From positions 1 to 61,970 of the IMG/VR virus record IMGVR_UViG_3300046529_000300: a DNA stretch of 61,970 bases; one strand, 5' to 3'. The notes under the pieces were generated by a model. The model made no database searches. It saw only the letters and a list, made by a program, of their open reading frames with translations, and was not told where the DNA came from. Origin of the DNA: a virus. Positions 15,655 to 30,097 of the stretch are shown here, in pieces; position 1 is the first letter of the stretch, and every line of letters starts with the position of its first letter. The position numbers were made by a program, and so were the translations under genes.

Positions 15655-16058
15655 GCAATCGAACACTAGTTGAATTGAATCATGATTATTGCCCGACTGG
15701 ATCAGGATTTAAAGATAGCGATCTAATAAAATGGGCGACCGCATTTGTGCGGTACATGCAATCGGGCGAAAAGAATTACCTACCGAAAGGCGTGACGTTC
15801 AAACACATGCGCCATCACAGCGAACCGGAACCCGTGGCCGGCGCGGCTGATGTAGAGAAGCTAGCAAGAGAGATCGCGGGCGGCGTGGACAAGCTAGTTT
15901 TTACCTGGATTAAGGAAATTTTCCCAGAGCAAGTGGCCGAAAGTAAAGGGCGGCAACAGTTCGTTGATTTAGTAAATCAGATTTGCGTTGGCGTGCTGCG
16001 CCGTTCTCTCCAGCCTCCCCCTGCTCCCGCCGTGCCAGGAGAGGACTCGACTAAGTGA
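15651..16058 (+). CDS. 135-aa hypothetical protein
   Basis: Overlaps the preceding stop by 4 bases and the start of the UDG-PolA gene by 4. Two segments: an N-terminal FKDSDLIKWATAFVRYMQSGE helix pair and a C-terminal helical part (VEKLAREIAGGVDKLVFTWIKEIFPEQ), joined by a GC-rich Pro/Glu linker and ending in a Pro-rich tail. No family recognised. Confidence 0.5.
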   Translation: MSNRTLVELNHDYCPTGSGFKDSDLIKWATAFVRYMQSGEKNYLPKGVTFKHMRHHSEPEPVAGAADVEKLAREIAGGVDKLVFTWIKEIFPEQVAESKGRQQFVDLVNQICVGVLRRSLQPPPAPAVPGEDSTK

Positions 16059-19000
16059 GATCCAAGCCTCAAATTTGTGCTTCGTGTTCCTGCCGTGACC
16101 ATGGGAACGACTTCTCCGCCGTCGAAGGCACGGGCACGAATGGAGTTCTATTCGTTGGCGAAGGCAGCGGGGAACACGAGCAGCGGGACCAGCTACCGTT
16201 CCGTCCCTATGCGCCCAGCGGCGCCGTGCTGGAGCGTTGTCTCCGGAGGATGGCCCTTGACCGGAAGCAGTTCGCGATCACCAACGTTCTACGTTGCTTT
16301 CCTGGGGATGTTGTGGTGGAAGCGACCAACGTACTCAATGCCTTCCGTAGGTGGTATGGGGGAGAACTCATCTGGGTATATACGAACGAAGGCATCCTCT
16401 CCGGTACCCCAAATCACCCTACATTGACCCACCGTGGCTGGGTTCCTCTTGGCCTTATCCAGCAGGGAGACTATCTTGTCCGCAGCTCCATCCCTGAGAG
16501 GATGACCGGCAGTAATCCACACATAGACTGGGATTCTATTCGCCTTGATCACACCTTTAATTTTTTCTCTAACTACGCGAGACGCCGTAGGGTTGTTGGC
16601 GGCAACATGGACTTCCACGGCGATGGGCGCGAGTCCGAGGTCGATATTATAAGCGTCCAAGGGCTCTTGGGGAATGAAGACTATGCCGCGTCGCTTGAGC
16701 ATGTTTCCGAGTTCTCGCTCGAAGCGTCCTACCTGAAAGGAAGTATTGCGCAAGGCTTGAGCACGTGCTTGGGCGGCGCGGAGAGCCTGTTCCGCAGGAA
16801 CCTTTCTACCCCTGACAGCATTGTGTGCAGCTTCGGTAAGAGCGCGTCGTCCGTAGGGTCCAGCTCGCTTGAGCCTGACGCGCATAGCCTCACTACGGCC
16901 TCTCAGTTTTACACCAATACCCAAGAGCCGGTTGCCAGCGGTCTGTGGGCTGATGCCGAATTGTATCGCGAGGCCCTCCAATCCCTCTCCAGCGAGGTAT
17001 CTCTCTGCAAGGTTAGTCAGATCAAACGGAGGAACTTTTCGGGGCATGTATATAATCTCCACACAACAAGTGAATTATATACTGCAAATGGATTCATAGT
17101 ACATAATTGCCGGCCACGGAAGAACTGGCTGGAGGGCGCACCGTGGGAATACTCCGCGATCCGCCAGTGCAGGCCGAATCTGGACGCGGCCATTGCGATG
17201 TACAAGCCGCGGTGCATCGTCGCGCTGGGTGGAGTAGCACTTCGCGAGCTGACCGGAGAGGCTGGAGAGTCGCGGGGGATCACGCATCTGGCGGGATATG
17301 TGATGCCACTAGCGGGGGGCAACGCACTTGGTGAGAGATATCGACAGGAAGCAAGGGAGACCTTGCAGAGGGAGGTGCAACATGACTCTGAAGTATCAGG
17401 AGCCCACGCGATGTCGGCCAGCACAGGCTCAACCGCAATTCCCGTGCTGGCCGACTTCCATCCCTCCTATCTCCGCCGTGGCAAGGCCAGCTATCAGGGA
17501 GTATTCTCCCGCATCATCCAGCGCGCGCTGGGGATCGCATCCGGTCGCGACAGATCCTACGCCTGGGGCATCGACCCAGACGACTCTGCGACGTGGAACA
17601 CTCCAGCCGGGAGGCTGAACTACTGGACGCATCCGACGACCGACCAGGCGAGGTCGGTGCTGCGGTTCTTGCAGGAGAATCCGGGGCTGCCGATCGCGAA
17701 GGACATTGAGACCTCCGAGAGCAGCTCCCTCGACGAGGACGCGAGAGAGGGATTCTCCGACACTGAGGTAAGACTGTTCCAGCTCAGTTATCAGCCTGGA
17801 ACCGGGATCGCTATCCCCTACACGGGGGAGTTCAAGGCAGTGGTGAGGGAGATGTTGCACCTCAGGAACCCATTCTACGGCCACAACTGGGATAACTTCG
17901 ATCACAAGGTATTGCGTGCGTGTGCTGCACGAGAGGGATGGAAATATGCTCCGTCTGTTAGAGTGTTTGATACTCTTGACATGTTTCATCACTGGCAGCC
18001 TGACCTGCCTGCTCATTTGCAGTTTTGTTCCTCATTCATTAATTTCCCCTTTCCATGGAAGCACCTTGCGAATACTAATATTGAGTTCTATGGTATTTGC
18101 GATGTTGATGCCGACTTACGACTTGGTACATTTCTTGAGAAAGCACTCAAGAAAGACAACCTCTGGGGCGAGGGTGACTCGTACTCTCTGACCACCGGCT
18201 ACACCGGGCAGGAGCGGGAAGTCCGGCCCGTGTTAGCAGCGATGGAGGACCGGGGGGTGCCGATTGACGATGCTCGGCGGCTGGAACTCAATGACGAATT
18301 CGAGAAAGCACAGTTGGAACTGGGAGAGGAATTAGACAGGAGGTTTCCCGATGAATGTCGTAGTTTACATCCGAAAGAAGGATATAAGAAGGTTCCCAAA
18401 GACTGTGATGGTCTTGTACTTCTTGGGTTCGATATTGCTTCTGTGGATGACGGGGGGGATCCTGTGGCCAAGCGTGTGGATCGTTGGGTTCGTCGCGAGT
18501 GTTTCGCTCCTAACTCCTCGCAGCAGCTCCTCCGATACATGAAAATCAAGGGCCATCGCGTCCCCAAGTCCAAGATCGAAGACGAAGACGGCAATCAGAA
18601 AGACACCACCGCTGCGAAGGAACTCCAGCGCCTGGCGGTCAAGACCGATGACGATTTCTACCTGAAGGTGATCGAGTACCGCGGGCTGACCAAACTCCGT
18701 GGCACCTACGTGGACGGGTTCCGTCCGGGTGCAGATGGTCGCGTCCACACCACCTTCACCTTCCAGACGGCGATTGCTCAGCTCTCGGCGAGGAACCCGA
18801 ATACGACGAATTTCCCTAAGTTGAAGCCCACTCCGAAGCTGGCCAAGGCACTCCGCGGCATGATCTGCGCGGACGATGGGCATGTCATCGCGGAGGTGGA
18901 TTTCAAGTCCTGCCATGTGATCACGCTGGGGCTGCTGGCTGGGGACGCTAATTATACGCGGCTAGGGAGATTAGATATTCATAGTGCGGTGGCCGGGCAC

Positions 19001-19840
19001 TTCCTCGGCCACTGGGACCTCAATCAGATAATCAAGGAGACGGACGATGAACTCATGCAAAGGTTTAGATGGCTCAAGAGTGATGCGGAGAGGAAGCGGG
19101 TCAGAGATGATCAAGCTAAGCACGGAATCCTTGGCATTGGAAATGGCCTTCGCGCCAAGGGACTCTACGAGCGTTATATGGAAAGTTTCCCTTCCCGCCA
19201 ATGTCCAGCTTGTGACAATGGTAAGGTACATGGTATCCGCGGACTGAAGAATTGTCCGACGTGTAAGGGCACTGCTAAACAGAGCGGCCTCCAGATAGCT
19301 GAAGCCGTGCTGGCCACCTGCGAACAACTCTTCCCGCGCGTGTTCGAGTACCAGGAACTCCAGCGCAAGGAAGCCCACGAGACGCAGCGACTCCGCACCC
19401 CGTTCGGCCATCTGCGGAGATTCTATGAGGTCTATCGCTGGGACGGTCGCAAGGGCTGCTGGAGTCACGGCGATCAAGCCGAGGAGGCAGTAGCGTATCG
19501 CCTGGCGAACACCGCGCACGCGCACATGCGGGAGGTGATGAAAGATTTGGCTAAGTTGGGACTAGATGCTAAGTACAATCTTTTCAATATGGTGCATGAT
19601 TCCCTCATGGCAATGCCGAGGGAAGACATGCTGGCCGATTTCGTCCGCGAGGTGATCCCGGTGATGACCGCTCCATCGAAGGTGATGCCGGGACTATGGC
19701 TGGGCGTGGAGGCCAGCTACGGCAGGCGATGGAATTCGATGAAGGATTTGGAAATCCCGCTGGAGATGTTGACACCCCCGACTACAATGGCCACAGCAGC
19801 AACTCTGGAGACGCCTTGCCCTGCAAGCATGAGCACGTAA
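16055..19840 (+). CDS. Uracil-DNA glycosylase/PolA fusion precursor containing an intein
   Basis: 1261-aa precursor; 990 aa after splicing. Residues 1-80 and 352-490 form a family-4-type uracil-DNA glycosylase: CxxC at C8/C11, GEGSGEHE (36-42), TNVLR-CRPRKNW across the intein, C372, and HPSYLRRG. Next a DEDDy exonuclease: DIET (D550/E552), GHNWDNFDHK, YGICDVDADLRL. Then a family A polymerase: motif A EVDFKS (D949), motif B with K1022 and Leu at the 762-equivalent, motif C MVHDSL (D1182). CPAC/CPTC cysteines (1050-1070) form a zinc-ribbon insertion between motifs B and C. It would replicate phage DNA and remove or sense uracil. It is the last gene of the replication operon. Confidence 0.93.
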   Translation: MRSKPQICASCSCRDHGNDFSAVEGTGTNGVLFVGEGSGEHEQRDQLPFRPYAPSGAVLERCLRRMALDRKQFAITNVLRCFPGDVVVEATNVLNAFRRWYGGELIWVYTNEGILSGTPNHPTLTHRGWVPLGLIQQGDYLVRSSIPERMTGSNPHIDWDSIRLDHTFNFFSNYARRRRVVGGNMDFHGDGRESEVDIISVQGLLGNEDYAASLEHVSEFSLEASYLKGSIAQGLSTCLGGAESLFRRNLSTPDSIVCSFGKSASSVGSSSLEPDAHSLTTASQFYTNTQEPVASGLWADAELYREALQSLSSEVSLCKVSQIKRRNFSGHVYNLHTTSELYTANGFIVHNCRPRKNWLEGAPWEYSAIRQCRPNLDAAIAMYKPRCIVALGGVALRELTGEAGESRGITHLAGYVMPLAGGNALGERYRQEARETLQREVQHDSEVSGAHAMSASTGSTAIPVLADFHPSYLRRGKASYQGVFSRIIQRALGIASGRDRSYAWGIDPDDSATWNTPAGRLNYWTHPTTDQARSVLRFLQENPGLPIAKDIETSESSSLDEDAREGFSDTEVRLFQLSYQPGTGIAIPYTGEFKAVVREMLHLRNPFYGHNWDNFDHKVLRACAAREGWKYAPSVRVFDTLDMFHHWQPDLPAHLQFCSSFINFPFPWKHLANTNIEFYGICDVDADLRLGTFLEKALKKDNLWGEGDSYSLTTGYTGQEREVRPVLAAMEDRGVPIDDARRLELNDEFEKAQLELGEELDRRFPDECRSLHPKEGYKKVPKDCDGLVLLGFDIASVDDGGDPVAKRVDRWVRRECFAPNSSQQLLRYMKIKGHRVPKSKIEDEDGNQKDTTAAKELQRLAVKTDDDFYLKVIEYRGLTKLRGTYVDGFRPGADGRVHTTFTFQTAIAQLSARNPNTTNFPKLKPTPKLAKALRGMICADDGHVIAEVDFKSCHVITLGLLAGDANYTRLGRLDIHSAVAGHFLGHWDLNQIIKETDDELMQRFRWLKSDAERKRVRDDQAKHGILGIGNGLRAKGLYERYMESFPSRQCPACDNGKVHGIRGLKNCPTCKGTAKQSGLQIAEAVLATCEQLFPRVFEYQELQRKEAHETQRLRTPFGHLRRFYEVYRWDGRKGCWSHGDQAEEAVAYRLANTAHAHMREVMKDLAKLGLDAKYNLFNMVHDSLMAMPREDMLADFVREVIPVMTAPSKVMPGLWLGVEASYGRRWNSMKDLEIPLEMLTPPTTMATAATLETPCPASMST
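16289..17047 (-). CDS. Vsr/EDxHD-like homing endonuclease, antisense within the intein
   Basis: 252 aa. N-terminal helix-turn-helix (NLAERYLAGEGLEGLAIQFGISPQTAGNRL, given in part; residues 12-41), a basic linker, then a restriction-endonuclease-like core: FERELGNMLKRRGIVF (Glu110/112), YNIDLGLAPIAVEVHV (Asp136, Glu145, His147) and KANRIPVYVWI. This is the Vsr/DUF559-like fold used by EDxHD homing endonucleases. ATG 17047 has GGAG 9 bases upstream, and TATAAT lies at 17079-17074. The gene covers the intein almost exactly, its stop falling 6 bases into the extein. Codons are in register with the sense frame, so each strand must avoid TTA, CTA and TCA. Confidence 0.75.
   Translation of the reverse strand: MPRKVPPFDLTNLAERYLAGEGLEGLAIQFGISPQTAGNRLLGIGVKLRGRSEAMRVRLKRAGPYGRRALTEAAHNAVRGRKVPAEQALRAAQARAQALRNTSFQVGRFERELGNMLKRRGIVFIPQEPLDAYNIDLGLAPIAVEVHVAANNPTASRVVREKIKGVIKANRIPVYVWITAGHPLRDGAADKIVSLLDKAKRNPATVGQCRVIWGTGEDAFVRIYPDEFSPIPPTEGIEYVGRFHHNIPRKAT
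16295..17107 (+). other. Intein in the glycosylase domain (271 aa)
   Basis: Residues 81-351 of the fusion. Block A is CFPGDVVVEA; block B GTPNHPTLT; blocks F/G GHVYNLHT...NGFIVHN, followed by Cys352. Cys1, the block B His, the terminal HN and the Cys+1 are all present, so class 1 splicing should work. Ligation gives NVLR-CRPRKNW, matching the conserved CRP motif of family 4 glycosylases. Between blocks B and F the sense frame is Ser-rich without LAGLIDADG or HNH; that stretch is the antisense of the endonuclease gene. Confidence 0.92.
17074..17079 (-). promoter_or_regulatory. Consensus -10 box for the antisense endonuclease
   Basis: TATAAT on the minus strand, 27 bases before the endonuclease ATG. 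The hexamer 17 bases further upstream (GTACTA) matches the -35 consensus poorly. Transcription would begin near 17067, leaving a leader of about 20 bases that contains the GGAG binding site. It lies inside DNA encoding the intein's C-terminal splicing blocks. Confidence 0.5.
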
Positions 19841-21400: not shown

Positions 21401-21640
21401 ATGGGAGTTGGAGTAGGACAACCAATCAGTAGATATCAAAGTAATGATACGAATACCGAGCCAGATATGATTGGCAACACATTGGAAGCCCAGGACGGTC
21501 ATCTTTACTTCTCCACGCGTGCCGGGAGGCATCCCATCCGCGTGATGGCCACCACCAAGACCATCCGCGTGGGCTGCACCACGCTCACCCGTGAGGCTTG
21601 GGAACTCCTGAAGCGCAAGGTGGATGGAGAACGTCAATGA
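21401..21640 (+). CDS. 79-aa hypothetical protein
   Basis: ATG 21401 follows AGAGGG. LEAQDGHLYFSTRAGRHPIRVMATTKTIRVGCTTLTREAWELLKRKV reads as beta strands then a helix. Its stop overlaps the glycosyltransferase ATG, so it leads the glycan operon. Function unknown. Confidence 0.5.
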   Translation: MGVGVGQPISRYQSNDTNTEPDMIGNTLEAQDGHLYFSTRAGRHPIRVMATTKTIRVGCTTLTREAWELLKRKVDGERQ

Positions 21641-22845
21641 ACAACCGACCGATACCGATCCTGATCCTCGGCGACTCCCCCGACATGGCAGGAGGGCTCT
21701 CGCGCATCACCCGCGACATCGCTGGACAGCTCTCGCGTAATCCCAGGTTCCGAGTAGCCACGCTCGGACGCGGCGCCGTGGGCTCGCTCCGCCTGCCGTT
21801 CATGCAATATTGCATACGCAACCTGCCGGGTAACATGTGGGGCGAGGCTGACCTCCCCAAGGTGTGGCAAGACTTCGCCGGGAAGGAGCGCGGAATCATG
21901 TTCACCATCTGGGACCCGACGCGCACGCTCTGGCTATCACACCCGGAACTCCTGCGAGATACCTTCCCCGAGACGGCGCAGTTCATTCACGAGGGCCACT
22001 TCGATCTCTGGGGATATGTGACGCTCGACGCGACTGGGCCCAGCGATAAGGTCTCGGCCATCGTCGCGGATTCACTCCGCGGATACCGGAGACTGCTGGC
22101 CTATACGAAATGGGCGGAGGGCGTGATCCGGCGGTCGCTGGGGGACGAAGCCTGCAACCAGCGGAACCTGACGTGGCTCCCGCATGGACTCGATCTTCCG
22201 CGCTGGCCGATGCGGGATCGCGACGCCGCGAAGGCGAGGCTATATCCGTTCCTGCATGAGGGACAGAAGCTGGTCGGAGCTATTGGGACGAATCAACCGA
22301 GGAAGGACTGGGGGCTGGTGGCGAGTGTGTGCCAGCAGCTCAGTGCGAGGAACAGGGAGTTGAAATTCTGGTGGCACACCGACCTCCTGGAGCGGAGCTG
22401 GTCGATCCCCGCGTTGTTGCATGACTTCGGGCTGGCTGGGGTGACACAGGTGACGCTGGAACTGTCGCAGGAGGAGCTGTCGTGGCGATACACAGCGAGC
22501 GACCTGACGCTACACCCCGGACTGGGAGAGGGATTCGGGTATCCGATCTTCGAGTCGCTGGCGAGTGGGACGCCGGTGCTGCACGGCGCATATGGTGGTG
22601 GTTATGACGTGCTGCTTCAGACCAATCACGACGAAGACGTAGGCATGCCTCAGCCTGTAGGTTGGAGACTAGAGGGCCTGCATAATCAGGTCAGGCCAGT
22701 ATTTGATCCCACTGACTGGGCACATAAAGCCGAACTTGTGCTGGGGTTTGATGTTAGCCATGATAGCGTGCGTGCCAGCATCGCGCATCTCTCGTGGGAC
22801 GGTCTCTGGCCGATGTTCGAGCGGTGGTTCGAGGAGGGACTGTGA
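21637..22845 (+). CDS. GT4-type (GT-B fold) glycosyltransferase
   Basis: 402 aa. Starts NRPIPILILGDSPDMAGGLSR (given in part), a GT-B N-terminal strand and loop. The donor-binding C-terminal domain shows AIGTNQPRKDW (about 210) and LTLHPGLGEGFGYPIFESLASGTPVL (about 290-315), the GEGFGxxxxE signature of family 4. It would transfer a sugar from a nucleotide donor; acceptor unknown. First gene of an 11-gene overlapping cluster. Confidence 0.88.
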   Translation: MNNRPIPILILGDSPDMAGGLSRITRDIAGQLSRNPRFRVATLGRGAVGSLRLPFMQYCIRNLPGNMWGEADLPKVWQDFAGKERGIMFTIWDPTRTLWLSHPELLRDTFPETAQFIHEGHFDLWGYVTLDATGPSDKVSAIVADSLRGYRRLLAYTKWAEGVIRRSLGDEACNQRNLTWLPHGLDLPRWPMRDRDAAKARLYPFLHEGQKLVGAIGTNQPRKDWGLVASVCQQLSARNRELKFWWHTDLLERSWSIPALLHDFGLAGVTQVTLELSQEELSWRYTASDLTLHPGLGEGFGYPIFESLASGTPVLHGAYGGGYDVLLQTNHDEDVGMPQPVGWRLEGLHNQVRPVFDPTDWAHKAELVLGFDVSHDSVRASIAHLSWDGLWPMFERWFEEGL

Positions 22846-23594
22846 CGACTCCACGACTGGCGATTACGACTGCGGTGCTGGAACAACCTAATGGTGGTCA
22901 CGGTGATTTGGTTTGCCGCTGTATTGAATCATGGTCAAGTACTCACATGGGAGAATATGAATGTGTAATTAGATATAACACTCCCGACGACAACCTCGGA
23001 GTGACCGGCTCCCTCCAGTGGCTCTACGAACACACCACCGCTCCGGTGATTGCATTCCTGCACTCTGACTTGGAAATCTTCGAGCCGGGCTGGGACGCTC
23101 GTGTGCTGAAGGAGTTCGACGACCCCAAAGTAGGACTTGTGGGATTCGGAGGAGGACTACAACATGGATCGACTGATATCTATAAAATCCCTTATGCTCT
23201 GGGCCAGCTTGCTCGGTTTGACTATCGCTCTAATACTACTGATGCTGAACAGCATGGAGAGCGGTTTGTGGAATCATGTGAGGTGGCTGTACTTGATGGC
23301 TTCGCTCTCATTCTCCGGCGTGAGTTACTGGATCGCGTTGGCGGATGGCCAGTTAAGGAGCTACCGTTCCATTGCTATGACTACTGGGCAGCAATCGCCA
23401 CCCACAAGCTCGGCTACTCTGTGCGCCTCGTTGGGATTAAGTGCCAACATTGGGGCGGGAGTACCAGTACAACCCCCGAAGCCCAAGCCTACTGGGAACG
23501 TAGTCTGAACAAGACAGACGCACAAATTCACGAGGAATCTCATCGCTTTATGTATGACTATGCGAGAGGTTATCTACCTTGGAGGATAAAATGA
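22842..23594 (+). CDS. GT2-like (GT-A fold) glycosyltransferase
   Basis: 250 aa from GTG 22842, overlapping the preceding stop. AITTAVLEQPNGGHGDLVCRC, then PVIAFLHSDLEIFEPGWD with a DxD-like SDLEI, and a later GFALILRRELLDRVGGW, the layout of family 2 transferases. Its C-terminal HWGGSTSTTPEAQAYW is also typical. Substrates unknown. Confidence 0.78.
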   Translation: MTTPRLAITTAVLEQPNGGHGDLVCRCIESWSSTHMGEYECVIRYNTPDDNLGVTGSLQWLYEHTTAPVIAFLHSDLEIFEPGWDARVLKEFDDPKVGLVGFGGGLQHGSTDIYKIPYALGQLARFDYRSNTTDAEQHGERFVESCEVAVLDGFALILRRELLDRVGGWPVKELPFHCYDYWAAIATHKLGYSVRLVGIKCQHWGGSTSTTPEAQAYWERSLNKTDAQIHEESHRFMYDYARGYLPWRIK

Positions 23595-24526
23595 GAATCC
23601 TAATAACTGGCCACGCTGGAATGATCGGCAGCGAGCTCTGCCATCAGCTCTCAGCTCTCGGTCATGAACTCCTAGGCTGCGATGACCTCTCGCACGACTG
23701 CGTGGAGGTGGGGTCACTCCCAGTGAAGCAGAACATCCTCTGCTCCGTGGAGCAGCTCCCGCTGTTCGAGACCATGTTGCACCCGCTCGATCTGATCATC
23801 CACTGTGCCTCGCCCATCGGTCATGCGATGCTGACTCCCGCTGCGGAGATCGCATGGAAGATAATCTCCGGGACGCAAGCGGTGCTCGATCTGGCATTGC
23901 GGACCGGAGCGAGACTCATCACCTTCAGCAGCAGCGAAGTCCTGTCCTACCGCGGCGAGACCGACATCCGCGCGCAGTACTCCCTGGGGAAGCTGACCTC
24001 CGAGGCGATGGCGCTCGGGCATCCCTCCGTGGATGCGAAGGTGATCCGGCCCTACAACGTGACCGGGAGGCTCCAGCGTGCGGACGGAGGGTTCGTGATG
24101 GCCAGGTTCCGGGACGCAGCACTGAAGGGGGAACCTCTGACAGTGTTCGGGAGTGGGGAGCAGAAGCGGTGCTTCCTGCATGTGACGGATTTCGCGAGGT
24201 TCGTCTGCCTGCTGGTGGAGTGGTGGCCGGAGCATAAGGTGTGGAGCGTATTTAATCCAACGAATCAAACAACAATCAATGATCTTGTTGTGATGTTTAA
24301 GAATGCTGCTGGTATCAGCCTCAACTCTCCTACATCTTATTGGCAGGATGGAGCTACTGTACTTAATAACCCCGACTGGCGTGATACCCCCGAACGCCAG
24401 ATCCATTCGCTCTGGTTTGACGACTGTACGTCATTGGGATGGAAACCAAAAGTATCTCTAGAGGAGATCGTGAAGGATCATCTCAATGTAGGAGTCCCCA
24501 CAGCCAAGGTAATCTCCCATGATTAA
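23591..24526 (+). CDS. NAD-dependent nucleotide-sugar epimerase/dehydratase
   Basis: 311 aa extended SDR. MRILITGHAGMIGSELCHQL holds the GxxGxxG NAD-binding loop; FSSSEV and YSLGK (YxxxK) are catalytic; VIRPYNVTGR and VFGSGEQKRCFLHVTDFAR match sugar-nucleotide enzymes such as UDP-glucuronate decarboxylase and epimerases. ATG 23591 has a strong GGAGGATAAA. It would make the activated sugar used by neighbouring transferases. Confidence 0.9.
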   Translation: MRILITGHAGMIGSELCHQLSALGHELLGCDDLSHDCVEVGSLPVKQNILCSVEQLPLFETMLHPLDLIIHCASPIGHAMLTPAAEIAWKIISGTQAVLDLALRTGARLITFSSSEVLSYRGETDIRAQYSLGKLTSEAMALGHPSVDAKVIRPYNVTGRLQRADGGFVMARFRDAALKGEPLTVFGSGEQKRCFLHVTDFARFVCLLVEWWPEHKVWSVFNPTNQTTINDLVVMFKNAAGISLNSPTSYWQDGATVLNNPDWRDTPERQIHSLWFDDCTSLGWKPKVSLEEIVKDHLNVGVPTAKVISHD

Positions 24527-25229
24527 TATCATTATGCTTGTTCACAATAAAACATATAAACGTTTCCAATTAACTATACAAGCATTAGATTCCTTGATTG
24601 CACATACCAGTGCTCATTATCGCTTGTTGATTATAGATGACTATTCCAGTGGTGAAACTGCCGATATGTTAGATGAATATGCTGACATATATAGTAAAAA
24701 AATACATATAGCTCATAGTCGAATCACTAAGCTAGGACCAGGATTAGCACGTAATATCGGAATCAAGAAGGCAGATCAGTGGGGCAGAGGGGATGCATTG
24801 TACTTATGTGATAACGATTGTTATTTCCTGCCGGGGTGGGATGAACGATTATTAATCGCCTTTGAAGCTGCCAAGAGTGTTGGATTCATGGCTGTTGGTG
24901 GATATTGTCATCCTTTTCAGCAACGTGGTAAGAGCTATGGCACGACACATATCGGCGTCATACGTGAGCTTGAAGCCCTTGGCCTATTGAGCTGGCTAAT
25001 GGACTGGAGCACGTGGGATCAGTTTGGCCCATTCGATTCGGCAGTGAAGGTGAATGGTTCCGAGGACTGGGCGATGTGCCAGAAGATTCGCAAGGCTGGC
25101 GGCAGGGTGGGAGTATTGGAACCAGCAGTAGTAATAAATTGTGGAATAACAAGCAGTGACAATAGCTTATGTCCTGGTGCTAAACACTTATATGATCAGG
25201 ATATTCCAGCTGGTGTAATACTAAAATAA
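24519..25229 (+). CDS. GT2 glycosyltransferase, AT-rich
   Basis: 236 aa. INIIMLVHNKTYKRFQLTIQALDSL (given in part), LLIIDDYSSGETADML, LGPGLARNIGIKKA and ALYLCDNDCYFLPGWD (DxD) form a clear family 2 signature; GSEDWAMCQKIRKAGG is the typical ED motif. Its base composition is far more AT-rich than the genes on both sides, so it was probably acquired separately. It overlaps the epimerase by 8 bases. Confidence 0.9.
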   Translation: MINIIMLVHNKTYKRFQLTIQALDSLIAHTSAHYRLLIIDDYSSGETADMLDEYADIYSKKIHIAHSRITKLGPGLARNIGIKKADQWGRGDALYLCDNDCYFLPGWDERLLIAFEAAKSVGFMAVGGYCHPFQQRGKSYGTTHIGVIRELEALGLLSWLMDWSTWDQFGPFDSAVKVNGSEDWAMCQKIRKAGGRVGVLEPAVVINCGITSSDNSLCPGAKHLYDQDIPAGVILK

Positions 25230-25231
25230 AT

Positions 25232-26542
25232 ATGGCACACATACTTCTAATCAATCCATCCTCACCCTTCCTCGTGGACGCGAAGACATTCCCTCCGCTG
25301 GGGTTGCTCTATCTCGCCGCCGCGCTGGAATCGGCAGGTCACACCGCCCGCGTCATCGACCTCGCGTTCGACGCTCCACTCTCCGGTCACTCACCCGATG
25401 TGATCGGCATCATGTGCCTCACTCCGCACTTCCCGCAAATGTCCAGCTTGATACATGAGTTGCGATCCACTTATCCATCCGTTCCCATCGCCGTCGGCGG
25501 GCCGCATTTCTCAACCGTCCCTGCCGACGGCGGTCGCGTCGGGGCAGATGTGGTATGCGTGGGTGATGGTGAAGAGGTGATCGTACAGATAGCAAATGGT
25601 GATTGGACAAAGGGCGACATATTGAAAAGCCCTGGAGGTATTTTAGATGTTGATCGCGTTCCCATCCCAGCAAGACATCTGCTACCTATTGCGTCTTACG
25701 ATTACAAAATTGCGGGACTCAAGGCAACCACGATTATGTCGCAGAGAGGATGTCCTTATTCGTGCAGTTTCTGTGCTCATTTCGAGGGATATACTCGTAT
25801 CCGGTTGCGTTCTATTGACAATGTTATCACCGAAGTCAGACAGCTCAAGTCCCAAGGCTATGGCGGGATAATGATTTTTGATGACGAAGTGAACATAGTA
25901 AGAAAAAGAACCATGGCTCTGGCTGAGGCCTTGAAGCCTGAGGGGATCAAATGGCGCGCTTTCGTTAAGGCCAATCTATTCGATGACGAACAAGCAAAGG
26001 CATTTGCTGAGTCTGGCTGTTGGGAGCTATGCACAGGAGTAGAGGCGGGAGATGATCGCATATTGAAGACGATCCAGAAGAAGGCTACTGTGGCTGACAA
26101 CACACGCACTGTCCAGCTCTGCAAGAAGTATGGGATTCGCGTGAAGGCCTTCTGCCAGATAGGACATCCCGGAGAGTCGATGGAGAGCATCATGGCCTTG
26201 AAGAACTGGCTTATCGCCAATGCTCCGTCGGAGCTGAACATTTCTCTACACACCCCATATTTAGGCACTCCCGTGATGGAACACCCCGAACGCTACGATA
26301 TTAAATTCGACACTGAGGATTACTCCAAGTCAGAATACTTCTACCGGGGCAAACCCGGAGAATACCAGGGGCATGTGAGTACGTCTCATTTGTCTTCCGA
26401 ACAGCTTATAAAGCTGCGCTTTGAGGTTGAGCGTGATGTACGTGAAGCTCTTGGTCTGCCACCTCAGGGCGATCCAGCGACATGGAATACACCAACCCCC
26501 CGCACGCGAGATGTTTATGTGGAGGCTGAATGCCGAGGTTAG
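25232..26542 (+). CDS. Radical SAM enzyme with B12-binding-fold N terminus
   Basis: 436 aa. N-terminal Rossmann-like domain (MAHILLINPSSPF, PPLGLLYLAAALESAGH, DVIGIMCLTPHF, AVGGPHF) of the cobalamin-binding class, without the DxHxxG histidine. The radical SAM core has QRGCPYSCSFCAH (Cx3Cx2C for 4Fe-4S), then IMIFDDEVN and LCTGVEAGDDRILK. Enzymes of this class methylate or rearrange unreactive carbons in sugars, lipids or antibiotics. In a glycan cluster, sugar modification is plausible. Confidence 0.88.
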   Translation: MAHILLINPSSPFLVDAKTFPPLGLLYLAAALESAGHTARVIDLAFDAPLSGHSPDVIGIMCLTPHFPQMSSLIHELRSTYPSVPIAVGGPHFSTVPADGGRVGADVVCVGDGEEVIVQIANGDWTKGDILKSPGGILDVDRVPIPARHLLPIASYDYKIAGLKATTIMSQRGCPYSCSFCAHFEGYTRIRLRSIDNVITEVRQLKSQGYGGIMIFDDEVNIVRKRTMALAEALKPEGIKWRAFVKANLFDDEQAKAFAESGCWELCTGVEAGDDRILKTIQKKATVADNTRTVQLCKKYGIRVKAFCQIGHPGESMESIMALKNWLIANAPSELNISLHTPYLGTPVMEHPERYDIKFDTEDYSKSEYFYRGKPGEYQGHVSTSHLSSEQLIKLRFEVERDVREALGLPPQGDPATWNTPTPRTRDVYVEAECRG

Positions 26543-27204
26543 TCGTACGGTGGCAGATCGGCCCGTTCGGTGAGATGAGCTGGCGTGCCTTGCGTCTCAG
26601 CGTTCGCCTGATGCAACGGCTGGAACCGAACGCGGATTTCATAGTCGTCCATCAGGGAACTCCGAAGGTAGGCATCGACGGCGTGATGTGGTGCCCGCAG
26701 GGGAATCTCTATTCACACGGGAGATTCGAGCGGCCATTCGCGGGGCTGTATGATGGGTCACAGCATGAAGCGACCATCGAGAACGATCACATCATGTGGG
26801 CGCTGCCGGATGGCTGGACGCGCTGGCTGTCCCGCGACGATGCCACCCTCGCATGGATCGTGGACTGGGACTACTACGGCAACTACGCCGACCGCGTGGG
26901 AGATTTCCGCGCCTGTCCGGGGATGTATGGGCTGCCTCCGGGAGTGGTGATGCCAGCTCCGCCGATTGAGGAACGTGGAGATGATCAAGCTGAACAAGGG
27001 TTCGTTGCAGCGTGGCTGCGCGAGCATCCTCCGCATGAGATCGTCACCCACGACGAGGTAAGCGCATACATGCCGAACCACGACATCCTCCGGCACACAC
27101 ATTCGAAGCTGGGGACGCATGGCGTTCACCTGCCGGGATTGAATCGCGGGTGGTCGCGTGGCGCCGAGGAACTCATCGTTGAACTAGAGAGGAAATACCT
27201 ATGA
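26530..27204 (+). CDS. Glycosyltransferase-like hypothetical protein
   Basis: 224 aa, overlapping the radical SAM gene by 13 bases. It has a strand-turn layout (LVVRWQIGPFG, ADFIVVHQG), an ATIENDHIMWALPDGW segment that could hold a DxD-like donor site, and a C-terminal part with GTHGVHLPGLNRGW. No firm family, but context and pattern suggest a GT-A enzyme of unknown substrate. Confidence 0.5.
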   Translation: MPRLVVRWQIGPFGEMSWRALRLSVRLMQRLEPNADFIVVHQGTPKVGIDGVMWCPQGNLYSHGRFERPFAGLYDGSQHEATIENDHIMWALPDGWTRWLSRDDATLAWIVDWDYYGNYADRVGDFRACPGMYGLPPGVVMPAPPIEERGDDQAEQGFVAAWLREHPPHEIVTHDEVSAYMPNHDILRHTHSKLGTHGVHLPGLNRGWSRGAEELIVELERKYL

Positions 27205-27764
27205 CCCATCCAAGCGTAGAACACTTCACTCGGGCTATGGAATTCAAAGGCCTCGCACCGTGTCCGCAGGATTCGCGGTGGGAGATTCCCACGGACTCCG
27301 ACATCTGCACGGAGGTCGAGACATTGCAACTGCTGTTCGGGTTCGTCAGGACGCTGAAGCCGAGGGTGGTGGTCGAGACTGGGTGCAACGTCGGCTGCGC
27401 GTCGCAGGTGATCTGCATGGCACTGGAAGCCAACGGCGGGGAGGGACGACTATGGACTTGTGATACCGAAGCTCCTAACGTGGCTGTTACGCAGCGTCGT
27501 CTCTTGGCGCGGGGACACACTAAGCTCATGGATGGATTGGCGTTGGTACAGGACGTGGGAACTCTTGCCGATCTCTACTGGATCGACAGCTCCGACTCCT
27601 CCCGCATGGCTGAACTCCACTGGATACGCGACCACGGCAAGCGTGGGGCGGTCGTCCTCACCCACGACACCAACCTCATCGGCCACGTCACAGAGGTTCA
27701 TCGCACCCTGCCGAACTGGGTGCTGCTGCCGGGGCCGCGGGGATTGGGGATTGCTACGCTATGA
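27201..27764 (+). CDS. SAM-dependent methyltransferase (class I)
   Basis: 187 aa. PRVVVETGCNVGCASQVICMAL is motif I (ETGxxxG), RLWTCDTEAP motif II, LADLYWIDSS and AVVLTHDTN the later strands; similar to methyltransferase_24/cephalosporin hydroxylase-like enzymes. It would methylate a sugar or related small group. Overlaps its neighbours by 4 bases. Confidence 0.8.
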   Translation: MTHPSVEHFTRAMEFKGLAPCPQDSRWEIPTDSDICTEVETLQLLFGFVRTLKPRVVVETGCNVGCASQVICMALEANGGEGRLWTCDTEAPNVAVTQRRLLARGHTKLMDGLALVQDVGTLADLYWIDSSDSSRMAELHWIRDHGKRGAVVLTHDTNLIGHVTEVHRTLPNWVLLPGPRGLGIATL

Positions 27765-27970
27765 AATTTTTCAATATTACTGGGTCATTTCCAGATCCGA
27801 CCGCTAATTGGCCAACGCCATTACGCTCTTGGTGGTATAGGAACTCCAAAGGTAGAAATGCTACTTGGTACTGGCGCATCTGGTGGTGGATGGGGTATCA
27901 CGGGTTATATCAGATTAATTGGGACTGGAAGAACTGGTTGGTCGAGATACGGAGCTATCGAGCCTTATGA
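27761..27970 (+). CDS. Tryptophan-rich 69-aa protein
   Basis: Eleven tryptophans in 69 residues, including WWYRN and WYWRIWWWMGYHG. It overlaps both neighbours (ATGA at each end), which supports real translation. No membrane segment is clean because of interspersed Arg and Asn. Its frame is AT-rich. It could be a glycan- or membrane-interface-binding peptide, or a remnant of a longer gene. Confidence 0.5.
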   Translation: MKFFNITGSFPDPTANWPTPLRSWWYRNSKGRNATWYWRIWWWMGYHGLYQINWDWKNWLVEIRSYRAL

Positions 27971-28836
27971 AAGTCTGCTTCCTCAATCGTAATCCCACCA
28001 CGCATCCCGGCGGAGATCTCATCATGCTGGAATGTCTGATGAACGCACTCAGGAGGATCGGTGTCGAGTGCTGGAATCTCTACGGCGAATGGTCGCCGGA
28101 GTCCCTGCACGAGTACGACGTGGTTCATATTCAACACTGCAATCTCACATGGTCGAAAGACAACTGGTGGAAGACCCTCGCCTCGCGCCGGCCTTACGTC
28201 GTGCTCCCGATCTTCTATCCCACCGGCGCACTGGGGATGAGCTACTCCGAGATGCGAACGATGTTCGAGAACGCTTCAGCAGTGGTGCCGCTGAGTTTCG
28301 CCGAAGCACGGGAGATCAGGACGCTGACTGGATACGCTGGCCCGTTCCATGTGATCCCGCACGGCACGGAGGAGCGGTTCGATTGGCCTAACGATAGAAA
28401 TCCTAAACTTAATCCATACGTGATGTGTGCGAACGCTCGCGGCGACAAGGGTGAATCACTAGTCGAGAAAGTCTGCCAGCGTTTGGGCCTGCCGTTCCGC
28501 TATGTGAGAGATATCCCGCACGAGAAATTGCATCTCGTGTATCGACAGGCGAATGTGTTCGTGCATTCCTCCCCGGATGACCGCATGTCGCTTACCGTGG
28601 GCGAGGCCTTGTGCAGCGGGTGCAGAGTCATCTCCAGTTCCCGCGACCGAGGCAACGAGTGGTTTCCCTATATTAAGACTTGGGACCCGGATGATGAGTC
28701 GGGATTATATGAAGATATTCATGATGCCTGGAACTCTCCCGAGTGGAACTGGCGTCCGAACGAAACCGCGCGCACGATGACCTGGGAGAAGGCCGCGCTA
28801 GCGTGGAAGCGTGTGTATGAAGGAGCGATTCGATGA
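27967..28836 (+). CDS. GT4-type glycosyltransferase
   Basis: 289 aa. MKVCFLNRNPTTHPGGDLIM, HEYDVVHIQHC, FHVIPHGTEERFDW, YRQANVFVHSSPDDRMSLTVGEALCSGCRVI: the GT-B donor domain with the family 4 E...E-type motif. Shorter than usual (about 350) but complete. It probably adds one sugar of the glycan made by this cluster. Confidence 0.86.
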   Translation: MKVCFLNRNPTTHPGGDLIMLECLMNALRRIGVECWNLYGEWSPESLHEYDVVHIQHCNLTWSKDNWWKTLASRRPYVVLPIFYPTGALGMSYSEMRTMFENASAVVPLSFAEAREIRTLTGYAGPFHVIPHGTEERFDWPNDRNPKLNPYVMCANARGDKGESLVEKVCQRLGLPFRYVRDIPHEKLHLVYRQANVFVHSSPDDRMSLTVGEALCSGCRVISSSRDRGNEWFPYIKTWDPDDESGLYEDIHDAWNSPEWNWRPNETARTMTWEKAALAWKRVYEGAIR

Positions 28837-29330
28837 TTGCGCTTAATATCGGCAGTGGTCAGCGGCCATTCAAACATCCATTTGTCAACATCGACCCACA
28901 GGAGCGGTGGAACCCCGACGTGGTGGCCGATGGAGCCCATCTGCCCTACGACGATGCTAGCATCGACCTGGTTGTGTATTCCCACGTCTGGGAGCACGAG
29001 GGTTGCGGCGAGGCCCTCGCCCTCCAGCGCGAGGCATTCCGGGTGCTCAAGCCGGGGGGATCGCTGATCACCGCCGTGCCGGACACTCGCGCCTTGGCAC
29101 AGGCGTGGCTTGTGGGAAAGCTGGACACGGTTACCTACATGATCTCAGTCTATGGAGCGTTCATGGGACATGACCGGGACCGCCATCGCTGGGGATTCAC
29201 AAAGGAAACCTTGGAGATGGAACTGGCGGATTGTCCATGGCGTGAGGTAAAGATGTTTGACTGGCGGAAGGTTGAGGGAATGGACTTGGCGCGGGATTTC
29301 TGGATTCTGGCGATGGAGGCGGTGCGATGA
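28833..29330 (+). CDS. SAM methyltransferase (Methyltransf_11-like)
   Basis: 165 aa. ALNIGSGQRP (motif I), FVNIDPQ, ASIDLVVYSHVWEH, and FRVLKPGGSLITAVPD are canonical class I motifs. Often found next to sugar transferases, where it caps a sugar or acts on an acyl group. Coupled by 4-base overlaps on both sides. Confidence 0.88.
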   Translation: MIALNIGSGQRPFKHPFVNIDPQERWNPDVVADGAHLPYDDASIDLVVYSHVWEHEGCGEALALQREAFRVLKPGGSLITAVPDTRALAQAWLVGKLDTVTYMISVYGAFMGHDRDRHRWGFTKETLEMELADCPWREVKMFDWRKVEGMDLARDFWILAMEAVR

Positions 29331-30097
29331 CTCAACCAAGCTGGATTGTGATGCCTATTTATAATCAACTGGCGTTGACGCGGGACGCCATTGCCAGCTG
29401 TCTCGCGCAGGACATCCCCGGCGGGGTGCGCGTCCTCTGTGTAATCGACCGCGGCGACGATGGCGTGGCACAGTGGCTCCGGTCACAGGGGAAGGCCGTG
29501 CAGGTGGTGGAAGCTCCCGGCTGCGGTGTGTCGAAGGCGTGGAACCTCGCACTGGGACATGTATTCGATGCCCTCGGCGGGGAACACGCGTTGGTGGCGA
29601 ACTCGGACGTGAAGCTGCGTCCAGATACGTACAGGAGGCTTGTCGATGATGGAGGAAAGTTTGTCACTTGCGTGGGTACGTCAAGCGGGGCGAAGTTCCC
29701 CGGCGGAGATCCTGACCCTAAGCGAGTACGGCCTCACCCTGATTTCTCATGCTTCCTACTCCGTAGAGACTGCTGGCGAGAAGTCGGAACCTTCGATGAC
29801 AGAATGCGAATTTACTGCTCGGATGGAGACTATCACTTACGAATGCATCATCAAGGCATTTGTGCGTACTGCCTTGACCTGCCCTTTTGGCACTACGCCT
29901 CAGGGTCGTTGAAACAGACCGACCCGGATGACCGGGAGCGAATACTGAAGATCGCGGGACAAGACAGGGAAGTGTTCCATAACAAATGGAGATTCGAGAT
30001 GGGTGGGACAGAATATTACGCAGCGTTCGCGCATAAAGAAGAGGCCCCGTTGCCGGAGCCCCTGTTGGAAGAAAATACATTCGAGGCTGAGCCCTGA
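29327..30097 (+). CDS. GT2 glycosyltransferase, last gene of rightward block
   Basis: 256 aa. SWIVMPIYNQLALTRDAIASCL, VLCVIDRGDDG, CGVSKAWNLALGHV, ALVANSDVKLRPD (DxD-like SDV) and CFLLRRDCWREVGTFDDRMRI form a standard family 2 set. Its end faces the late block: a leftward stop codon lies 1 base beyond, with no clear terminator between. Confidence 0.88.
   Translation: MTQPSWIVMPIYNQLALTRDAIASCLAQDIPGGVRVLCVIDRGDDGVAQWLRSQGKAVQVVEAPGCGVSKAWNLALGHVFDALGGEHALVANSDVKLRPDTYRRLVDDGGKFVTCVGTSSGAKFPGGDPDPKRVRPHPDFSCFLLRRDCWREVGTFDDRMRIYCSDGDYHLRMHHQGICAYCLDLPFWHYASGSLKQTDPDDRERILKIAGQDREVFHNKWRFEMGGTEYYAAFAHKEEAPLPEPLLEENTFEAEP

Follow-up and report, generated by a model that had tools for sequence, protein, structure and literature searches.

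We analysed a stretch of viral DNA of 61,970 bases (hereafter the window), the whole of a virus record that carries a fusion of uracil-DNA glycosylase (UDG) and family A DNA polymerase. An intein interrupts the fusion gene, and the opposite strand of that intein is occupied by a second open reading frame. The features of the locus are as follows.

16055 to 19840, plus strand: host gene, a family 4 type UDG fused to a family A DNA polymerase and interrupted by the intein (UDG E=9.9e-15, DNA_pol_A E=1.6e-22).
16295 to 17107, plus strand: class 1 intein of 271 aa that begins with Cys1, has TPNHPTLTHRG as block B, GHVYNL as block F and HN as block G, and is followed by the +1 Cys at 17108.
16406 to 16438, plus strand: intein block B (TPNHPTLTHRG); A5, T38 and H41 are invariant in the alignment.
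17042 to 17059, plus strand: intein block F (GHVYNL), in which the CAT codon for His reads as the nuclease ATG on the other strand.
16289 to 17047, minus strand: putative antisense homing endonuclease gene, 252 aa, with an ATG start and a TAG stop within the N-extein.
17057 to 17060, minus strand: GGAG resembling a Shine-Dalgarno site, upstream of the nuclease start codon; it overlaps the mirror of CTC, the Leu codon of block F, and is in the same place in most relatives.
16919 to 17020, minus strand: predicted N-terminal helix-turn-helix (HTH) DNA-binding domain of the nuclease (model helices 15-48; the family matches resolvase-type and other HTH domains).
16808 to 16903, minus strand: conserved linker helix of the nuclease (RGRSEAM ... 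TEAAHNAVRG), from the family alignment and the model.
16382 to 16735, minus strand: Vsr/EDxHD-type nuclease domain with E115, D141, E150 and H152 (numbered from 17062).
16478 to 17017, minus strand: stretch selected on the antisense strand, with wobble at antisense position 3 (pooled from 20 pairs of relatives and projected on window coordinates).
About 16343 to 16477, no single strand: zone of mixed selection on both strands, where the C-terminal strand of the nuclease lies opposite block B (p3/p1 0.67-0.9).

The intein meets the criteria for class 1 (Cys1, a TxxH in block B, block F, His/Ser-Asn in block G and the +1 residue) and matches Pfam Intein_splicing (E=1.3e-7). AlphaFold predicted two well-formed ends (pLDDT about 75-95), both of which match inteins in the PDB, and a middle at about 28-44, with residues 123-223 below 50. 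Blocks B and F do not enclose an in-frame nuclease; the nuclease is antisense, the sense middle is predicted to be disordered, and its DFHGDG...VDII stretch is the mirror of the YNIDLGL...VAVEVH core of the nuclease. Homologues of the UDG-polymerase A fusion without an intein are present in other viral contigs. The PHROG profile phrog_15127 ('head protein', 602 positions) matches the intein at 244-392 and apparently includes an intein with the nuclease mirror. Elsewhere in the window, about 8.5 kb (21598-30097) encode glycosyltransferases, a sugar epimerase, a B12-binding radical SAM protein and methyltransferases, which is odd cargo for a phage. An Rfam search of the window gave no matches.

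The antisense frame is open from GTG at 17062 or ATG at 17047 to TAG at 16291-16289, in exact codon register with the intein; the start conserved in the family is the ATG at 17047. For the window alone, an open antisense frame has a chance of about 10^-1.25 when the nuclease protein is taken as given and of 10^-2.4 when the sense protein is, and at the GC content of the window the open frame by itself is weak evidence. That the antisense gene is real is nevertheless certain, because homology and selection in its relatives both demonstrate it.

The AlphaFold model of the antisense protein was confident (pLDDT 86). Foldseek alone returned nothing below E=0.001 for this model (best 1vsr, 0.027), and the clear fold assignment came afterwards from VIA-align, in which the top structures were Vsr (1cw0, Z 10.5), I-Bth0305I (3r3p, Z 10.2) and 3hrl (Z 10.1). 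A profile search of solved structures found 3r3p (E=1.5e-7) and 3hrl (E=6.8e-7). Among 67 family members, 59 matched the Pfam family MTES_1575, 19 DUF559 and 2 Vsr, and many matched HTH families; the window nuclease by itself reached a score of only 0.037 against MTES_1575. E115, Y138, N139 and D141 are invariant in the family alignment and E150 is conserved in at least 90%, whereas the His two residues past E150 varies among members and is present in the window copy as H152; the final Asp of the catalytic motif has no assigned counterpart. The protein did not match LAGLIDADG and has the Vsr-type fold instead. HMMs, structure profiles and fold thus all point to a nuclease of the Vsr/EDxHD type, an assignment that we regard as very probable; the fold is predicted by a model and cleavage is inferred.

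This layout is not unique to the window but is widespread in phages. Using tblastn, we found 111 phage records at E<=1e-5, of which the best was Gordonia phage Vivi2 (38% identity, E=5e-31, 126 bits; the best score for the sense protein was 107 bits). Further matches came from phages of Salmonella, Escherichia, Pantoea, Pseudomonas, Klebsiella, Vibrio, Edwardsiella, Idiomarinaceae and Haemophilus, and nearly all of these relatives sit antisense within a minor capsid gene. Scanning viral contigs with nuclease peptides confirmed 137 loci, of which 80 were kept, and bacterial contigs gave 5. These scans are blind to orientation, and in 85 of 85 loci fetched in this way the nuclease was antisense in an open intein frame. 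Of 104 loci, several of them near-duplicates, 103 had an open mirror (sense) frame and 102 an open nuclease frame; L063 and L074, which lack a fully open nuclease frame, still have open frames of 238 and 241 aa. Of control windows of 220 codons elsewhere in the same loci, a fraction of 0.20-0.24 was antisense-open, and 35 of 86 loci had no open control window; the mirror frame was open in AT-rich genomes as well. The host genes were MuF-like in 33 of 64 cases, minor capsid 2 in 10, VG15 in 3 and UDG in 1, not counting the window. A second UDG gene with an antisense-nuclease intein (L100) apparently uses another Cys-Arg site, which lies a little beyond that of the window in the UDG domain. Nuclease relatives also occur in the plasmid records NZ_CP108975.1 (Streptomyces platensis) and NZ_LN890657.1 (Candidatus Promineifilum breve), one of them annotated 'phage minor head protein'. 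Salmonella phage GE_vB_HIL, in which both frames are broken, was left uncounted; its record is marked 'UNVERIFIED' and has apparent indel errors.

The translation signals of the nuclease lie within a splicing motif. On the opposite strand, the His codon of block F (GHVY) supplies its start, such that CAT reads as ATG and CAC as GTG; among 88 distinct loci, ATG occupied this position in 54 and GTG in 12, and most had a GGAGG, GAGG or GGAG site at the expected distance. Codon choice in block F is skewed accordingly: His was encoded by CAT in 29 of 36 cases (0.35 expected from the exteins) and Leu by CTC in 27 of 36 (0.27 expected). The binomial P of about 1e-8 is overstated because the loci are related. 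A sigma-70 scan near the nuclease gene found neither a promoter nor a terminator. An initial annotation of the window, made from sequence alone, had reported the complete class 1 intein at 16295-17107, the 252-aa antisense frame at 17047-16289 in exact register, an HTH with a Vsr/EDxHD-like core, for which it proposed an HMM search, and a GGAG site, which lies at 17060-17057; all of these held. The TATAAT promoter that it also reported did not, as the scan was empty, and its suggestion that the two strands are under separate control lacks support as regards the promoter and remains an inference.

To identify the strand on which selection acts, we compared changes by codon position in 20 pairs of relatives, some of which share a member and are hence not fully independent. 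In the nuclease region, changes per codon at sense positions 1, 2 and 3 were 0.364, 0.136 and 0.246, compared with 0.277, 0.231 and 0.432 in the exteins. Single-base codon changes were synonymous in the antisense frame for 64% and in the sense frame for 26% within the nuclease region; the corresponding values in the exteins were 16% and 70%. Position 1 changed more than position 3 in 19 of 20 pairs within the nuclease region, and position 3 more than position 1 in all 20 in the exteins. Projected on the window, sense selection lies outside 16343-17017, and the switch points map within the element. The nuclease gene contains no TTA, CTA or TCA codons, which keeps the sense frame open. These tests are decisive: the minus strand carries an ordinary gene flanked by plus-strand splicing segments, a result that belongs to the family and not to the window copy: no relative of that copy closer than 38% identity was found, and selection on it is therefore inferred from the family. 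From the codon-position tests and the predicted structure, we infer that the middle of the sense intein is an unstructured passenger and that its splicing ends are under sense selection.

We found intein-free alleles of the host gene (L110, 74% identical, L111 and L112) that are contiguous across the joint, as expected of a removable insertion. In the Acinetobacter phages IME285 (L020, 455-1348) and BUCT629 (L116, 2390-3283), a nuclease of the family is free-standing and lies tail to tail with a MuF-like gene that is intact and has no intein but retains the insertion motif (LPMC/KCRAKL). The mirror frame of this free-standing nuclease is broken by 12 stops, and the protein nests in a clade of antisense members (support 0.98); because of this nesting, an intein is its probable place of origin, from which it escaped. 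Homing by the nuclease, inferred in the absence of cleavage data, is supported by this free-standing relative next to a target without an intein and by the intein-free alleles of the window host gene. These results bear on the remaining claims of the initial annotation. Its proposal that both sequences constrain each other held only in the short zone at about 16343-16477; over most of the remaining overlap, the codon-substitution test shows constraint on the nuclease strand alone, with a sense frame that is merely open. The intein-free homologues of the fusion that it suggested searching for exist. It had named two outcomes that would refute it, an antisense protein without HMM or fold matches and relatives in which the sense middle is conserved but the antisense frame is broken, and neither occurred; relatives conserve the antisense frame and not the sense middle.

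The MuF gene of Gordonia phage Lennon (L117, 1508-4618) carries a different intein at the same MuF insertion site as the family, without the DFHGDG motif and without the family nuclease. The antisense strand of this intein, again in exact register, encodes a LAGLIDADG-like protein (AAYVAAFIDGEGTVTV). Using phmmer, we matched this protein to I-MsoI (3fd2) at 4e-4, and Pfam LAGLIDADG_3 gave a weak match (0.26). Its relatives include free-standing phage endonucleases, such as that of Cyanophage PP (E=5e-7), whose gene has 7 mirror stops; no other relative was found in the viral contigs searched. Between Lennon and Barsten (L120), the nuclease region has 45, 7 and 11 changes at sense positions 1, 2 and 3, with 38 of 44 silent in antisense, compared with 9, 6 and 44 in the exteins, 12, 6 and 22 in the N part of the intein and 6, 10 and 17 in its C part, and the switch in codon position is very sharp. 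As motif, homologues and selection agree, Lennon represents a second, unrelated nuclease in the same layout. Taking these results together, we think it likely that inteins took up an antisense homing endonuclease at least twice, from unrelated nucleases, giving a widespread class of mobile elements that use both strands, whose nuclease is a protein of its own with translation signals inside a splicing motif, and in which DFHGDG is merely the mirror of a nuclease active site.

We conclude that the element is very probably a mobile intein in which the gene for the homing endonuclease runs in the opposite direction to the splicing protein. Our data show coding, selection, fold, spread of the family and empty alleles, whereas antisense transcription, cleavage, homing and splicing are inferred. 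In this model, the host gene would be translated through the entire element, and a splicing domain built from the two intein ends would fold and excise itself, with the mirror of the nuclease gene riding along as an unstructured linker. Translation of a stand-alone HTH and EDxHD/Vsr nuclease would begin on the opposite strand, from the ribosome-binding site and the start codon that block F contains; this nuclease would cut intein-free alleles at the insertion site, and recombination would then copy the element in. Selection would preserve the nuclease protein and the splicing ends and would keep the sense frame open across the nuclease.

The antisense frame could instead be a non-coding by-product of sense intein conservation in GC-rich genomes. 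For the window alone, the chance of an open frame is not tiny, and about a fifth of control windows are antisense-open. However, wobble falls on the antisense strand, similarity is higher for the antisense protein, the predicted fold is confidently of the Vsr type, the free-standing relative has a mirror frame with 12 stops and the frame is open in AT-rich genomes too; the codon-position test refutes this explanation, which is all but excluded. We also consider it very unlikely that both strands are functional, with the sense middle (DFHGDG...VDVV) a real intein domain overprinted by the nuclease. DFHGDG is well conserved in sense and both strands are under constraint in the short zone that faces block B, but the motif mirrors the YNxD...VAVEVH core of the nuclease, the sense middle is predicted not to fold, sense position 3 there behaves as a normal antisense position 1, and the unrelated Lennon intein at the same site lacks both the motif and the family nuclease.

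A further possibility is that the protein is a real nuclease that serves defence or restriction, or is a regulatory HTH protein, and shelters in the intein without homing. The fold is common to Vsr and other non-homing nucleases, and homing is read without cleavage data. Against this, the family is located almost exclusively in inteins, its free-standing member adjoins an intein-free target gene, the homing enzyme I-Bth0305I is among the nearest folds and presence is sporadic with empty alleles, so that we hold this reading to be highly improbable. Less easily dismissed, although still unlikely, is that the family is as described but the window copy is unexpressed or inactive, a drifting remnant that is open by chance: it has no close relative for testing, a fair chance of staying open at the GC content of the window and no promoter in the sigma-70 scan. 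But this copy is full length, its E115, D141, E150, H152, start codon and GGAG are all intact, and its protein is predicted to fold confidently.

An inverted mobile intein of this kind would divide splicing and nuclease functions between two proteins encoded on the two strands of one DNA segment, at more than 100 phage and prophage loci. Many of these loci lie in a capsid gene of Salmonella, Escherichia, Klebsiella and Gordonia phages that are well studied, and whose annotations include the sense product but miss the nuclease gene. The family is a clean natural example of full-length antisense dual coding in which selection can be measured for each strand, and it bears on how inteins acquire nucleases. 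Many phage inteins supposed to be endonuclease-free or degenerate are probably mobile. The layout would also uncouple expression of the nuclease from that of the host gene, although expression is inferred.

Homing-competent inteins are understood as single polypeptides with splicing and nuclease domains. The initial annotation knew of no described case of an antisense intein nuclease, and we found no description in the open-access literature that we searched; this set is incomplete, and the layout could have been described in a subscription paper or a preprint. Where an intein has an embedded homing endonuclease, the enzyme is usually of the LAGLIDADG type; the TerL inteins of mycobacteriophages are an example of such inteins (PMC5050341). 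Like the window element, inteins of this kind have splicing blocks around a nuclease and occur sporadically in phage genes at conserved sites; their nuclease is in the same frame and polypeptide, whereas in the present family it is a separate protein encoded on the opposite strand in exact register. Homing enzymes of the EDxHD type were already known from I-Bth0305I (PDB 3r3p; PMC3943268), which resembles the present family in its nuclease fold and profile match and in having multiple domains with DNA-binding parts, but is the protein of a mobile intron. The Vsr, DUF559 and MTES_1575 nucleases (1cw0, 1vsr and 3hrl) have the fold and Pfam families in common with the antisense nuclease but are cellular repair or uncharacterized proteins outside inteins. 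The closest parallel in layout is provided by nuclear rDNA group I introns with antisense His-Cys homing endonuclease genes (PMC9548176, PMC2585584), in which a self-splicing element likewise carries a nuclease gene on the opposite strand. Those genes lie in non-coding ribozyme loops without dual protein coding, whereas in the present inteins both strands are coding and the host frame must stay open.
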